Assembly (NCBI RefSeq): GCF_964355755.1
Contig: NC_092675.1
Coordinates: 6,792,312-6,856,311 of the forward strand
Reading direction: 5' to 3'
Source of the DNA: Antedon mediterranea
Lineage: Eukaryota > Echinodermata > Crinoidea > Comatulida > Antedonidae
DNA: 64,000 nucleotides
Positions 17,797 through 50,757 of this stretch are shown in pieces; position 1 is the stretch's first letter, and each line of letters starts with the position of its first letter. Below the pieces are notes generated by a model that was given only the letters and a program-made list of their open reading frames with translations, was not told the DNA's origin and made no database searches. Position numbers and translations under genes: made by a program.

Positions 17797-20700
17797 ATGG
17801 CGAAAACATTTGGTTTAGTATGTTGCTTCTTGCTTTTGCTAAGTAAACTGAATGATGTTGAAGGTAAGGGCATTGGTTTATTTCACACGACTCTATAGCT
17901 TGAGGTATACACCTATACATAGGCAATTTTGTTAACTCTTGCAAACTTCACTTCAAGCTATTTTTTATTTCAGTATTTGTTTAATTACTGATAAGCAACT
18001 CTAGTACACAATTTATTATTTCCTTGACTTATTTCTAAATAAAATAAATAGTTAAATAACTGTAGGATGAAAGCGATAAAGATTAGAACATTTGGGAGAA
18101 AGAATAAACACATTCTCACCGAGTAAAATCGTAATGATTTGTTCTTTGAATGGTAAATAGCTGGGGAACTTTTATTTGTTATATTCTATAATTACGTATA
18201 CATTAACAAAATAAACTCTACTGTGACTAAATACAATAAGAGGTGCTTTCATCTCAGGGTGGTATTCAACATGGAGAGAATCTATGTTTTTATAGTTCAT
18301 AGTTCATTTTATTTGTTCAAAAGGAAATTCATGTTAACATACGGTAACAATTGCGCAAATTTAATTTAAGTTTAGTAACATAGAAAAAGACAATAACATT
18401 TAAAATATACAACAGAGAAACAAAATAACTCTGATGAACAATTAATTAACTGACCAAAAAGTCATAGTAAATATGGAATAAAAGAATTAAGGAAGCGTAA
18501 TACATTATCTATTATCGTTGAGACTAAAACATCTTTACTTAATATAAATAATATATTCATAATAATACATAATATATTAATATAATAATTGTAACTTCAT
18601 TCCATATTCCTATATTACTATAATAGGATTTAAGACTAAATTTGTGTTAAATACTCGACGAAATAACAAAGACGAATCTCTATCAGCATACGATACAGCA
18701 TCTATTAGCAACTCGAATTTCAATCCAGCAAACCTCACCAAGTTTATAATTCATGGATTTCAAGAAAGCAGCGAAGAGAGATATGTTTCGGACATGTCCC
18801 GATCGCTGCTCGTTGAAGGTGATTATAACGTTATACTCGTGGATTGGGAAGAAGGAGCAGAAGGAAACGTATTACTCGATTATGATGATGCTGTGGATAA
18901 CGTACGTCTTGTTGGTGCCGAGATTGCTTATTTGATCAAGAAACTAAAGGTAATGCATTGCATGTAGGCTTATGAAAGAAACCAAGAATTTAGTATTTTT
19001 TTACTTAATTAAATGAACCATTGCGAACAAAAAAATGATAAATTTCAGTGACCACGGAGTATATAATAGATTATAGTTAGGCCTATGTCTTCGTCTTGAA
19101 ATCCAACAAATCACAGTTTAATGCACACGAAAAATATTGCACTCTTAATGTTTCAGTTGCCACTGAACTGTTTTTCGTATTATCAGAGTTTCCAATCATT
19201 ACAATATGGCTATACATTAATAGAAAATTAATCACAATTGTATTTACAAGATAAGAAGACTGACACTGGGAGAGTTATACATCGTATGGCTATTTCGTTT
19301 CAAGGAGCTATAAGAGTGGAATGAGCTTCCAATAAATTTAAATTAATTAGACACAGGTTTCACTCCTACCTTGTTCTTGTAATACAGTATCTATTTATTT
19401 ATTTTATTATTAAACAAGATTATTTATGTATTGCATAACTCACGGATAGAGGGTGCCTTTTCTGCAACGGTAATTGTTGGGCATAAGACTTTGTCTAAAT
19501 CTGTTCACAAAGTCAACGAATCCGTCGTATTATTTAATTAACATAAAACAATGTTGGAGTCCCGCCTATTGATCTGTGCAATCTTGATGTAACAGACCTA
19601 TATCCTTCCCTATAAAGTCTTATAACTATATACAACTCACTGATCTTATCAAATATATCATATATCATATATCATAACAGTCTGGGGCACTGATCGTGAT
19701 CGTATCCATGTACTTCAAAAAAGGGCTTTAAGAATTATATGTAAAACAAACTACTACCATCCATCTCTACCACTATTTATTAAAACTAATTCCCTTACCG
19801 TTTATGACCTCTATACAAAATCTATTTCACTTTTTATGTTTAAATACAATAAATTTTCATTCTTTTTTTCAAACATATGACTCTATTCATGTACATGATA
19901 CGAGAAACAAAAATAATTTGTATATCATCAAAAAGAACACAAACATGGGACAAAGGGGAATATCTTATGAAGGGCCAAGAATATGGAACAATATTAGTAA
20001 CAAAATTAGAATGAGTAATAACTTGTATAATTTCAAAAGGAAAATTAAAAGTTTATATATTATTGAATACACCGGAACAATGTAAATAGGTGTTTATGTG
20101 AAAATTGTATTATTTGTAATCAATTAACTGAATTATCAATTCTTGTTTTTATAATAATTAATATCAATATTTTAAAATGTAAAAGTTTAAGTTGTTTTAC
20201 TATTTAGAGGGGCGCCCAACTTAAAGCTTGCTTGCTGTGGCGTCCCTTTTCCACTTCCAACTTCTTTTCTTGCATTATATTATTTATGTTCATTATCAGT
20301 TGTATATTTACAGTATTATGCTACTCTGTATTTTGCTTTATTATTTGTGGAAATAAATATTATTATTATTATTATTATTATTATTATCTCAGCTTAAAAC
20401 TTAAAACTAACTATTTATTATTTATAGAGTGCAAGCGGGTTGTCTTTGAGAGACGTACACCTGATTGGTTTCAGCTTAGGAGCACACTGCGCAGGCTATG
20501 CCGGAAAGATTTTAGACGGTGAAATTGGAAGAATCACTGGTAAAAATAGGTTTAAACTAGAAAAAAAAATGTGTCCATTGAGATAGAATTAGGTCGGCGT
20601 TAGTCTACGAAAAAAAATCAATTTAATTGCTTCACTATTAACTATATTAATTAGTTTCTCATAAATGTGTCATAATTGGAACTAAAAATCATGTAAGTAT

Positions 20701-32784: not shown

Positions 32785-33139
32785 AAGAAATATTAATTTA
32801 TTTTTATTTCATTCAATCGAAACCAACAGCGATAATTACCGCCACTAACAGGACTGTACCTAGGTAAAGTACCTTGATTGGTCCTAACATTGATCAAGGG
32901 CTTCTCTCGTCCAGTACCCACCTTGACCATAGGAAAGGCATGACCCAATATGTCTGAGGCAGATACTAGATACAGGGGTTGCCATATGAGTCAGCAATGA
33001 ATGCTGATTTCAAATGTCTGACGGGACCCAGCTCCATATCAGCACCCGATATTCACGGATGGTCTCCCATCTAAGTACTAACAAGGCCCAACGTTGCTTA
33101 ACTTCGGTGGTCTGACGAGAACCGGTGTTTCAAAGCCGT
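32785..33139 (-). mobile_element. 5S-rRNA-derived SINE (SINE3-type)
   Basis: On the minus strand, 33139-33040 is a clear 5S rRNA relative: ACACCGGTTCTCGTC, CACCGAAGTTAAGCAACGTT, TTAGTACTTAGATGGGAGACC, and GAATATCGGGTGCTG. It retains the internal A-box and C-box regions. The 5' ~20 bases and the 3' strand of the terminal stem are not conserved. About 250 bases of unrelated body follow, ending in an A-rich AAATAAAAATAAATTAAT tail. A 5S head plus unrelated body plus tail is the SINE3 architecture; a genuine 5S gene would close the stem after GGTGCTG. Confidence 0.75.
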
Positions 33140-33734
33140 TAAATCAAAAACTTAATTTTATAACATCGACTAAATTAAATTATAAATTAAATTGTAATGA
33201 TGCAAAACATAACACGTTACGCAATACCGCTTCAATCATATGGGGAACAAGTGAGTTTATAGATATTAATAAGAATTTTGCTCATAGGTCAGCCTTTTGG
33301 CGCTTGGCTACGGATTTACCTGGAAAATGCATTCAATATCACGTTCATAGTTTTACACAGAGCGGCTTTTTCTTTGACTTAAACGATTAAAAAACAATAC
33401 TATGGTACAAAATGGCAGGATTATCGTAAACACATTTCCTTGTTTAATATTCAATTGAATAATCTAAAACGACGGGGAAGTTCTTGTATAAAAATTACAC
33501 CTTTAATACCACAACAATACAAATTCAATATGCAGATATCATTTTATGCAAAATAGTGTCTAATTAAAGTGATCGCGTTCAAATACAATCAGCTGACTAA
33601 TTGTCATAATTACTGATACAATGCAGAAAATATTTAGAGAAATTTCCAGCAAAAGAGTAATATTGCCAGTTTTACGTAATGATATTAATAGATACAACAA
33701 TATTGATTACAATATGGGTTGTTATTCCAAAAGG
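33140..33734. other. No gene seen
   Basis: A 98-codon frame begins inside the SINE and runs to 33390 without recognisable domains; not supported. Confidence 0.4.
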
Positions 33735-39354: not shown

Positions 39355-39567
39355 CATATGAATGAAAAAATATTAAAGAAAACTTGAGAGGGTGCTAAGC
39401 TTTAAAAAAAAAGTGTAGAAAGAAAACCTAAAAAATCTATCTTTTTCTATAAAAAAAATCTGTTCTGTGCTATTTGCCATGTTCACATCACTGTATTTCC
39501 TTCAATGAGCCATAATTAAGGATGTCAAATGATTCATCAAGTGCTTTCTACACTTAATTACTATTGT

Positions 39568-39920
39568 TAACAGACCTGACCAGGTTAACAGACCTGACCA
39601 GGTTAAAAGACTTGACTAGGTTAACAGACCTGACCAGGTTAAAAGACCTGACCGGATTAAAAGACTTGATCAGGTTAACATACTTGACCAGGTTAACCGA
39701 CCTGACCAGGTTAAAAGACCTGATCAGGTTAAAAGACTTGACCGGGTTAAACAACTTGACCAGGTAAACAGACCTGACCAGGCTAAAAGACCTGATCGGG
39801 TTAAAAGATTTAACCGGGTTAAAAGACTTGACCAGGTTAACAGACCTGACCAGGTTAACCGACCTGAACAGGTTCACAGACCTGACCAGGTTAACAGACC
39901 TAACCGGGTTAACAGACCTT
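39568..39920. repeat. 18-bp minisatellite, about 19 copies, open on both strands
   Basis: Unit AGACCTGACCAGGTTAAC, which contains the imperfect palindrome ACCTGACCAGGT. With an 18-bp period both strands stay open for >60 codons, encoding T-D-L-T-R-L on the plus and N-L-V-R-S-V on the minus strand. It lies just 3' of the POLE4 exons. A gene is not supported. Confidence 0.9.
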
Positions 39921-39991
39921 TTGCCAACGTTATTGTCTTATATAAAAATATCTTTTAAAGTGTTTGTTGTTGTTAAAGGCTATTGTCATAC

Positions 39992-45800: not shown

Positions 45801-48800
45801 GTATAACATCTTCAACGAGTCTAATTGTATTGACATTCTATAATAAAACGAAAGCCAATGAACCATTCTATATTTTGATGCAAACATTTGTAGGGCTTAC
45901 TATATTGAAAATTTGAGGATAAAAATGTCAGTTTGAAATGAAAATAAAGCACTACTGTATTTGATTATTTAGAACAAGACAGGCAAGGTGGTAGTAGGGA
46001 TGTGGACACCTCAAATTATCTATGTCTTGTAGGTCAGCGCTAGGCTACTACTACTATATATTGGCTAGCTTGGCCTAGCTAGCTGTACAAATTGCTAAAA
46101 AACATTATAATAAAAATACATTTGCTTGTAGAAATGTCTGATGAACATTTTGTTTTATTATTTATTTTATCAAATTATTAATAGTTTAATTGCTAAATAA
46201 TACTACCCTGTCAAAATATGTGTTTATTCTTGCCATGGAGGTATTCTTGCGTTAATAAAAAAATGAGCTCGCAAGCAGGAAATACCCTCACTGAAATGTA
46301 CTGGTGGCAGTACAGAACAATGGGTCAATAAACATCCGGCAGTCAATGGGTTTTAAAGAACCCCGATCTGTTTGCATCACTTCACTGTCAGATAGGTAGC
46401 TTTCTAGCCAATCTGTAATACCTCAATGAGTCTAGGAAAGCAAATTAATCATGAACTGAGCTGTAGGGACAAATATGTTTTACACAATATGAATGATTGG
46501 ATGCCACTTTGTATCAAGGACTATTTAATTGGAAGCCTTTCTACTGCCAATAATGCAGTAGAAAACAAGCCTTGAATGTAAATAAGGAAACCACTCTACT
46601 GTACTACCCAGACTACCTAATAACTTAATTACACTTTACTATCAGTACTGTGTAGAAGAATTAATCAGTAAGATTGACTTGCTGTACTGTGTGTTCTTGT
46701 CATTAAATTAATTAATTTTACTCATAATGTAAAAATTATGTTTTGATTAATTGCATGCAATTAGTGAATTTTCATTGCAATACAAGCTCTTTGTATTCAT
46801 TCAACAGGATGTGCTGTAGTGCATTATTGCTAATAAGTCCTTTTATGATTCCTTTTATCTCCATGAGATAAAGAGCATTCAATTACAATTGCCTATTTTA
46901 ATTTCAAAAGATAAATTAAAAGTTTATATTGTAATGGATTCAGATTTATACTTGCCTCAATATACAATAACCATATCAATACGCAGTGGACTAAATGTAA
47001 TCTTTAATCTCCTTTTATGAGTGCTGCCACCAAACAGTACTCATTCCTTCCACAACAGAGGCTGGGAGATGGACCTCCTACTTTTCCCTATGATACACTG
47101 GGTGGGTGGCGCATGCACACAAGTTATGTGTACAGTACACTGCACTTCCAATTTAAAATTATCTGAGAAGAGTGTTCTACCATCCAATTAACTAACTTTA
47201 TAATGTAGCCAACGTCATACATTTGATACAATTCTTCCTTTTTGTATTGTATTTTTAATAGTTTTAATAATTTTATGATACAAGAAGCTTTTAATCTGTA
47301 TGTATTATACTTAACCTAGCTTTTAATGTATATTTGTGTATTTAGTTGTAATCTTCTGAATTTGTATAGTATATCTTTTTTTTGTATATTTCATGCCAAT
47401 TTCAAATGAATTTCCATTTTTATTACTATGGACAATAAAATAGTATCGGTATCAGTATGATCGAGGAGAATCTGTGCCCATTTGCAGATATAATTTGCGA
47501 CTCAACTTGGCCAATCGGATCTGTTCTGTACTTTGCATACTTTAAATTATAAACAAAATTTAAAAAGATTATATAACAATTTAGGTACTACATTATATAA
47601 CGCAACCAAGGAACTAAGTTTTTACACTGTACCCAGATCAATATGTACAAATTAAAAAGATTTTGCAAGCAATTTTTCATTTCAGTGTGGTTGTTGCACT
47701 GTATGCCAAAACGCATTATCTGTAATTTTTCTTGAGGTGTGCCCGAGTTTTAAAGTTTCATCTTTATTGTATTTTTCCAGAAAGAATTTGATGCAGAGAT
47801 TGCGGGCGCCAGCGGACTTGTTGTCGTGGATTTTTTTGCGACTTGGTGTGGCCCCTGTAGAGCGATTTCTCCAAAAGTAGAGGTAATAACATTTTACAAC
47901 CATGGACATTTCCTGCGTTCAGGATGAAATAAAGTTTATCTGCATCCATGAAAATGAAAACCTATTTCAATAACCAATATCAATAACCAGTGTTTTCTTC
48001 TCAAATATTTTCCATAAAATGTGTATTTATACCTTATGACTTCTTACAAGCTGAATTTCAACACATGAAGATTTGGCATCGTGTATGTTCTATTACGAGT
48101 TGCATTTTGTAATTTCCTGCTTCAGTTTTTAAAATCAATTTTGTGACATTTCTGTGTGTGAACTCACCAAAAAGCCAGTCCAATGATATGTACATTGTAT
48201 AATAATCATGGACATAATGAATATCCTTAAAATAAAAAAAATAATAATAAAATTGAATCGTTGTTTGTTCTATTTAATGGGGCACATCGACAGAAATATA
48301 GTATAAAAAAACAATATAACAAAAAACATTCATTATTAAATCATATACATTTGATAAAACTACAATTTACCAAATTAAGACTGTGATTTCTGTATTTTGT
48401 CAACAGTCCATGGCTGCAGAATTTACCACCGTTCTCTTCTTGAAAGTTGATGTTGATGAGAATTCTGTAAGTTTCAAATTTATTTTATTATTTGTTGCAA
48501 TTAATTCTCAATAGAACTATAGAAATGGAAGCTGTGGATGTCAATTGTCATTCCGCTGTGGATGCCATTCCGTTGTGGATGTCAATTGTCATTCCGCTGT
48601 GGATGCCATTCCGTTTTAGATGTCATTCCGCTGTGGATGCCATTCCACTGCAGATGCCATTCCGCTGTGGATGTCAATTGTCATTCCGCTGTGGATGCCA
48701 TTCCGCTGTGGATGTCATTCCACTGTGGATGCCGTTCTGCTGTGTATGTCATTCTGCTGTAGATACCATTGCACTGCAGATGTGCTGCCATTCCGCTGTG

Positions 48801-50757
48801 GATGCCATTGCACTACGGATGCCACTCCACTGTAGATACCATTCCGCTGCAGATGTGCTGCCATTCCGCTGCGTATACTGCTAGCTGAACATCTCCCATT
48901 TACTACACATACAACAACTGACTGCTGGTGGAAACCATCCATCAACAACATTTCTTGGCAAATCAATGCTTTCTGGAAAACAGGCTTACTAATAAAGAAT
49001 ACTGTATTTAAAAATAACAATACATATTACAGTTTTAACTCTAATTTTAAATAGGACACCGCTGAGGCAGAAGAAATTAGTGCGATGCCTACTTTTAAAT
49101 TCTATAAGAATGGAGCAAAGGTATGGGCTTACATATTTTTATACTTCTTTTTTATTATTAATTTGGTGAGAGTCGCAAAACGTCTGATTGAATTACTTAA
49201 TAATAATAATAAATGAAAACTTGTCTAGCGCCAGTGTCCCCCATCCATGTGGCACCCATGGCACTTTATGCATTAGCAAAGTGCGAGTACATCAGCGAAT
49301 AGCGACGTCTTCAGGTTGGTCTTGAAACTGTTCAGACTAGTTTGAGAATTTAACTGTTGCTAGTAAACTGTTCCATATAGTTCACTGCAACGTAAAAAGA
49401 TCACTGATTTTTTGCTCTATGCTCTTGAACAAGGTTTTCTGAAATTGATCGTAGGCCTCTGCAGGATGATTCATAACGATCCACAAGGTCAGATAAGTAA
49501 GCTTAGCTCCCTGATGCAAAGCTACAGTACTTTGCTGTAATTAAATTATAATCTTGGTGCTGTACCAGCTGTTGCTTCATTGGGCTAGAACCTAACCCCA
49601 GCCATCAGCTCAAACAAACTGATTGCCTGCCTGGAATTAATAATAATAATAATAATAATAGTTCATTCTTATATAGCGCATATAAGCAAGCTCTCAATGC
49701 GCTGAACATTATTACCCCAGTCATTTTTTTTTGGGGATCAAACACGATGGAAACATACTCCCATAATGCAGCTAGTAATCAGCGCAAAGTTGTGTCTTGA
49801 TCTAACCGGGTACCCATTTATACACCTGGGTGGAGAGAGGCAAACGTAAGTAAAGTATCTTGCCTAAGGATACAAGCAATGCGGCGAGATCAGTAATCCA
49901 ACGTCCAACAGGGTTTTGAATGAGAATTTTTTTTCTCAAATATGTACTTGATATACAATTCACTTTACAGTAGAGCAAAATATCTCATCAATTAACATAG
50001 CCACCTGAGCCTGGTTATTTCGCAGTAGTTATTAAATTATTTTTCAATCACCAAATTGGTAACTGAAAAATAATTTCAAAATCAATGGATATACTTTGTA
50101 CAGAAATTCAGTTTGTGTTTTGGTAATCGTTCCCTGATCTTTGGTTGTGTTTTCAAAAACTTTGTACGTGTAAAAAAGATGAAGTACAATATATGAAATA
50201 AAATTGGTAACCACTAATAAAACTGGTGAAATGATATACAAATACAGTAATATTATTGAACATCTCTTTCTCTCTCTCTGATATTATTTCTTATTTATCC
50301 TTCTTACATAGTAGGCCTACTGTATATTTATATATATTTATTTTTTATATCTTTAATTTTGTATTTTTATATTGTAATTTATTTTTTGTATTAACTGTTT
50401 GTATAGTTTGAGGGTCCCTCATGATCAGCTTATGCTGTATGTATCACCCTCATTAAATATTTCCTTTTAGGAGGCTAGGCCAAGGGCTAAACCATTACCC
50501 ACAAGCGTAATTTGGGACGCGTGGTTGAATGTGCGGTTGCTCACTGTACTGTGTAAATGAATGTGCAAAACAAAAATCCTGTACGATGATAAATTGTGCA
50601 AGTGACAATCCTCAATTGACAAGATGTGTGTGATATTACAATATGAATTGATATATGTTGATTAATGTTTTATCCTATTTTTGTCTCGGTGCAGGTTGAC
50701 GAATTAACTGGGGCCAATGAAGCTAAACTGAGAGGACTCATCGAAAAACACAAATAA
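42845..50757 (+). CDS. TXN: Cytosolic thioredoxin, complete
   Basis: Five exons: 42845-42871, 47781-47882, 48407-48466, 49055-49120, 50695-50757, all phase 0, giving 105 residues, the same length as human TXN. Exon 1 encodes MSVKKVANK. The redox centre W-C-G-P-C falls at Cys32/Cys35, the buried Asp26 is in V-V-V-D-F-F, and the cis-Pro motif M-P-T-F is present. The end G-A-N-E-A-K-L-R matches the human G-A-N-K-E-K-L-E segment. It reduces protein disulfides using thioredoxin reductase. The extra regulatory cysteines of human TXN (62, 69, 73) are absent, leaving only the active-site pair. Intron 1 is 4.9 kb and holds two mobile elements. AATAAA at 51043 and 51058. Confidence 0.93.
42945..43080. 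repeat. GGCCAGG/TAGGCCTA-rich cluster in thioredoxin intron 1
   Basis: Dense run of AGGCCTAG, AGGCCGG and four CCAGG units in tandem (about 43027-43052). It is the strongest local concentration of the genome-wide TAGGCCTA-type motif. Confidence 0.6.
43548..43869. mobile_element. TTAA-flanked miniature element, family B copy 3 (thioredoxin intron 1)
   Basis: Left flank TTAA (43544-43547), right flank TTAG. Ends AGATGTACAGTATTGTCC (small insertion) and GGGGGACAATACATCT. Body as in the IL-17 introns. Confidence 0.82.
44150..45442. mobile_element. 1293-bp hAT-like element with 6-bp target duplication (thioredoxin intron 1)
   Basis: Starts CAGGGCATCACGT and ends AATGATGCCCTG. CTTTAT flanks both sides (44144-44149, 45443-45448). 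Subterminal repeats of the palindromic type GGAGAGCAATTCGCTCTCC occur three times on the left (44172-44258) and twice or more on the right (about 45140, 45355-45425). These are probable transposase-binding arrays. No transposase frame. Contains a poly-C/G-rich tract near 44335. Confidence 0.85.
45443..47780. other. Remainder of thioredoxin intron 1; no gene seen
   Basis: A (CTAGTATA)n microsatellite lies at 45632-45659. 47220-47460 ends in GGACAATAAAATAGTATCGGT, resembling a plus-strand retroposon 3' end. Otherwise unassigned. Confidence 0.4.
48534..48877. repeat. 17-bp minisatellite in thioredoxin intron 3, about 20 units
   Basis: Unit ATTCCGCTGTGGATGCC with variants; some units carry a GTCAATTGTC insertion giving a higher-order pattern. 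Open in all three plus frames because the unit lacks stops and 17 is not divisible by 3; not a gene. Confidence 0.9.
49190..49910 (-). mobile_element. Two retroposon 3' tails in thioredoxin intron 4
   Basis: About 49194-49510 begins with (TAA)n and CTTGTCTAGCGCC. About 49640-49910 begins with (TAA)n, then TTCTTATATAGCGC, AATGCGCTGAACA, and later TACCCATTTATACACCTGGG. The second is a repeat type widespread in marine invertebrate genomes. Orientation (tail at the left) implies minus-strand copies. No coding part. Confidence 0.55.

Follow-up and report, generated by a model that had tools for sequence, protein, structure and literature searches.

A short retroposon with a head derived from 5S rRNA lies at 33141-32793 on the minus strand of the window (the whole 64-kb stretch of DNA analysed here). 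It is a single old SINE copy, and it very probably belongs to a SINE3 family mobilised by a resident LINE. The evidence comprises the anatomy of this copy, its relatives across the assembly, the preserved 5S-type promoter in the head and a 3' tail held in common with a young LINE family.

Anatomy of the element

The window contains one match to 5S rRNA (Rfam RF00001), at 33152-33034 on the minus strand, scoring 61.7 bits (gathering score, 38) with an E-value of 1.6e-10. A body unrelated to 5S follows directly after the junction, which reads GGTGCTG followed by ATATGGAGCTGGG and falls at 33040/33039 (minus strand). Thus, the fusion of a 5S head to a non-5S body, proposed in a preliminary description of this DNA, is borne out, and the span given there (32785-33139) is correct to about 10 nt. 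The same description saw a body of approximately 250 bp with an A-rich tail. The stretch in fact comprises a body of approximately 186 nt, a 65-nt LINE-derived tail and an end resembling (ATAAA)n. The parts of the window copy are as follows.

33040..33141, minus strand: 5S rRNA-derived head, approximately 5S nt 3-115, this copy lacking 7 nt close to the 5' end (Rfam RF00001 and alignment to resident 5S genes)
33089..33103, minus strand: box A of the putative internal Pol III promoter, AGTTAAGCAACGTTG, which agrees with the canonical 5S copy on contig C3 at 14/15 positions (function presumed from 5S gene biology)
33056..33073, minus strand: box C region of the putative internal Pol III promoter, with the family consensus matching the C3 5S copy at 15/18 positions and the array copies at 16/18
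32853..33039, minus strand: SINE body, conserved across copies (40-copy consensus; a 27-nt piece with 473 matches in the genome)
32802..32852, minus strand: LINE-derived 3' tail, equivalent to consensus 308-357, with 293-307 deleted in this copy (match to resident LINE 3' end)
32793 to about 32801-32809, minus strand: A-rich 3' end, the remnant of an (ATAAA)n-type repeat end common to SINE and LINE copies (sequence reading and copy alignments)

Aligned to the consensus of 40 copies, the window element is 87.4% identical over 349 columns, or 89% without gaps. At 89% it is the most diverged copy of this set; it groups with the long form of the family and alone lacks 15 nt where the tail begins. 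Elsewhere in the window, 39554-39958 and 48471-48884 hold open frames of short internal repeats and are probably tandem-repeat DNA, not genes.

The family in the assembly

The assembly (354 Mb, 18 contigs) was searched with the 355-nt stretch as query. From 1,490 first-look candidates across the whole assembly, 40 matches were scored, each spanning nearly the whole query. The preliminary description had proposed a genome-wide search for the junction. A 22-nt junction pattern with up to three mismatches was found at 363 sites in the whole assembly (186 forward and 177 reverse) and the reversed-pattern control at none, which makes the element multicopy and no lone pseudogene. The 27-nt body piece occurs at 473 genomic sites. 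Both counts are lower bounds, given that decayed copies are missed, and the family comprises at least several hundred elements.

Alignment of the 40 copies together with their flanks gave a consensus of 357 nt, in which the head occupies positions 1-106, the body 107-292 and the tail 293-357, followed by an A repeat with interspersed T that resembles (ATAAA)n. The element ends are sharp: the flanks of the aligned copies are unrelated to each other and start exactly at the ends. These copies are spread over all main chromosomes, and every full copy has the same head/body fusion. The 3' end is fixed across copies, while some are 5'-truncated at variable points and preceded by unrelated DNA. Other heads on the same body were also considered, and in 13 5'-truncated copies the upstream DNA proved unrelated, with no tRNA.

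Two forms were distinguished, a long form of 357 nt, whose copies are 93-98% identical to their own consensus, and a short form of 338 nt, which lacks 19 nt of body and in which most copies are 98-99.4% identical to theirs; the two differ at few other sites. At 338-357 nt the element is too short for a reverse transcriptase, and is thus short and non-coding. The 338-nt form is the youngest subfamily, and amplification is judged to be recent because its copies reach 99.4% identity to the consensus; these ages describe the set of 40, which was picked for likeness to the window copy, rather than the spread of the whole family. In three of the 40 copies, approximately the first 20 nt of the head are tandemly duplicated at the 5' end, as if transcription or reverse transcription had restarted. 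Patterns from the body and tail had no match in viral contigs.

Flanking duplications, a further check proposed in the preliminary description, did not materialise, either short or long, and no copy has a clear one. In 38 copies the mean length of target-site duplications was 3.34 nt, compared with 3.36 nt in shuffled pairings, so that there is no excess, and no longer repeats were found between 240-nt flanks. Among the usual signs of retroposition, only this one is missing. Such duplications are usual in SINEs and not defining for SINE3, and CR1-type insertions often have no clear target-site duplications.

The 5S-derived head and its promoter elements

The consensus head aligns to the 5S genes on contig C3 and in the 5S array over approximately 5S nt 3-115, and only the first nucleotides of 5S are missing. 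Read off the alignment to the C3 copy, box A is retained at 14/15 positions, the IE at 5/6 and box C at 15/18, in agreement with the earlier view that the internal promoter regions are preserved. The head has also kept a strong predicted folding energy (z -3.4). Among genomic 5S copies, the top scores are 104-117 bits, and a large 5S array lies on contig C6 at 8.63-8.80 Mb. As seen at C6:8632600-8633500, the array 5S differs from the canonical-looking single copy on C3 at several normally conserved positions.

TTTT, which serves Pol III as a stop signal, does not occur in the consensus. There are two in the LINE tail, and a 3-nt gap has removed one of them from the SINE. However, 17% of simulated sequences lack TTTT too, and its absence is therefore only suggestive.

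The LINE-derived tail and its likely partner

Other owners of the tail were sought with a pattern in which the tail core follows bases other than those of the SINE. Several matches without the SINE body were obtained, one of which (C1:8458773) lies where a reverse transcriptase frame ends. A protein search with this frame returned 107 matches; of these, nearly 30 cover almost the full length and are 96-99% identical. The family is young, with 98-99% identity among many copies. The open frame is approximately 1,070 codons long, with several copies keeping frames of more than 1,000 codons, and the protein contains RVT_1 (E 3e-35) and Exo_endo_phos_2, an AP-type endonuclease domain. Its motifs presumably place it close to CR1 elements, which they resemble.

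In 29 of 30 copies the LINE ends in ...CAAACCTGTTAGTGGCGGTATTTATCGCTGTTGGTTTTGATTGAATAAAATAAAA, with small variations, and an A/T repeat. The SINE tail (consensus 293-357) matches this 3' end at 62 of 65 aligned nt, with three mismatches and one 3-nt gap; the alignment scores 106, whereas the highest score among 300 shuffles was 28. Folding predictions give the SINE and LINE tails a common central stem-loop. The comparison with resident LINE 3' ends suggested in the preliminary description was therefore positive, and these alignments indicate that the tail is LINE-derived, with a young resident LINE family encoding AP endonuclease and reverse transcriptase as the likely partner.

Several other LINE features were noted. 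The LINE fragment inside the window at 19732-20085 was considered as a partner and rejected, since it has an (ATT)n 3' end that fails to match the tail; the stretch 19732-20380 is the C-terminal portion of another LINE, the one with this (ATT)n end. Two loci on contig C7, approximately 7 Mb apart, have 3.1 kb in common at 86% identity with the same LINE-type 3' end, and include a stretch that by eye resembles formyltransferase. In the partner copy from C7:20114850 onward, the N-terminal LLSGDVESNPGP is a perfect match to the 2A ribosome-skipping motif D(V/I)ExNPGP and sits just before the endonuclease domain. This motif is known from sea urchin LINEs (PMC4981915).

Proposed mechanism and alternative explanations

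The mobilisation of the family may be pictured in three steps. The head would supply a 5S-type internal promoter, from which RNA polymerase III would transcribe the element. The LINE-like stem-loop and repeat end of the SINE tail would then be recognised by the reverse transcriptase of the resident AP-endonuclease LINE, and target-primed reverse transcription would insert copies of the SINE RNA at new sites in the chromosomes. The fixed 3' end, variable 5' truncation, LINE tail and repeat end are the marks expected of this process when carried out by a LINE protein. The family may still be active.

Taken alone, the window copy could pass for a single 5S pseudogene beside unrelated DNA, as it looks degraded at 61.7 bits next to the 104-117 bits of the top genomic 5S copies. 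The preliminary description had named a junction unique in the genome as the sign of such a pseudogene; 363 junction sites against none in the control, together with a fusion common to all full copies, rule this reading out and leave it practically no probability. Duplication of a 5S gene together with its spacer, segmentally or in tandem and with no retroposon involved, is extremely improbable as an account of the family. Some copies did multiply in this way: at C7:22976500-22985500 a tandem array has three junction sites at intervals of exactly 4,263 bp. However, only this three-site array fits, whereas the 40 aligned copies lie on all main chromosomes with unrelated flanks from the exact element ends, the SINE body has no counterpart in the spacers of the 5S array, and the tail matches a LINE rather than a 5S spacer. 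The 4,263-bp unit of the C7 array also holds an EGF-like coding stretch, and the SINE copy enclosed in it is cut after approximately 150 nt.

The copies might instead be solo LTRs of a non-autonomous LTR element of the Cassandra or Ajax type, in which 5S-derived promoters also occur (PMC10886601). The lack of target duplications, the variable 5' truncation, the A/T repeat end of variable length and the LINE-like tail all point to a SINE, and among the loci read no two copies were seen flanking an internal segment, which makes solo LTRs extremely unlikely. Service to the host is a further reading, in which some copies act, for example, as enhancers and their conservation reflects host function, as AmnSINE1 copies are known to act as enhancers in mammals (PMC3234267). 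Divergence is nevertheless alike in head (3.4%), body (3.4%) and tail (2.8%), as in young neutral copies, and host function is very unlikely to account for the conservation. A SINE3 family mobilised by a LINE is thus the preferred explanation.

Host and significance

The host was presumed to be an echinoderm, and two of three tektin exons support this, so that it is probably an echinoderm or at least an ambulacrarian. The tektin-4 exon scores 211 bits against an 8SNB chain and at most 135 against other orthologous tektins, and the tektin-1 exon 175 bits and at most 136, respectively; the tektin-3-like exon has no counterpart among the 8SNB chains. We take 8SNB to be a sea urchin sperm doublet structure. 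Mitochondrial COX1, sought in order to place the phylum by its genetic code, had no match in the assembly. The number of large contigs, eleven, would be compatible with a crinoid.

The family very probably extends 5S-headed SINEs to echinoderms, for which the literature found describes tRNA-headed SINEs only. No echinoderm SINE3 was found in the SINE literature consulted, and an example held only in a database (Repbase) may exist. The SINE and its likely partner, a LINE that is still young and has long open frames, form a natural pair in which to test the recruitment of a Pol III head and the recognition, by a LINE, of the 3' end of an RNA that is not its own. The family is also relevant to the question of several origins of SINE3 as opposed to inheritance from early deuterostomes.

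Comparison with known systems

By the features tested, all read from sequence, the element is a SINE3: it has a 5S head with box A, IE and box C kept, is dispersed in many copies with the same junction, shares its tail with a LINE, and is short and non-coding. SINE3 elements had been described at the outset as best known from vertebrates, which is mainly so, but 5S-headed SINEs also occur in insects and Aspergillus (PMC7245038, PMC3272025, PMC5063351): SINE3 is reported from vertebrates and some insects (PMC7245038), and 5S-related SINEs from Aspergillus (PMC5063351). The insect elements (HaSE3 and relatives; SINE3-1_TC) resemble the present family in their 5S head, LINE-dependent tail and invertebrate host. 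However, their partners belong to the RTE or I clades (PMC7245038), whereas the partner here is an AP-endonuclease LINE.

Sea urchin SINEs (SINE2-3_SP, a DeuSINE, and SURF1) have an echinoderm host, as the present family very probably does, and their tails derive from CR1-type LINEs, but their heads are tRNA-derived while the head described here is 5S-derived (PMC3747384). Ajax and Cassandra are likewise mobile elements that have recruited a Pol III promoter derived from 5S (PMC10886601). They are LTR elements with primer-binding sites, in contrast to the present element, which ends in a LINE tail.

The vertebrate SINE3 or 5S-headed DeuSINEs (zebrafish SINE3, AmnSINE1 and OS-SINE1) share with it a 5S head, a central body and a LINE-shared tail (PMC3747384, PMC7245038). 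AmnSINE1 also has a tRNA-derived region (PMC3234267), and none was seen here. The present host is very probably an echinoderm, and the body here is only a candidate for the Deu domain; a text search of the literature with SINE body strings returned nothing relevant. It is conceivable, if rather unlikely, that the body is a Deu-type conserved domain, which would make the element a 5S-headed DeuSINE outside vertebrates. If so, either the combination of 5S and Deu predates vertebrates, or 5S heads were acquired by Deu SINEs on two independent occasions.
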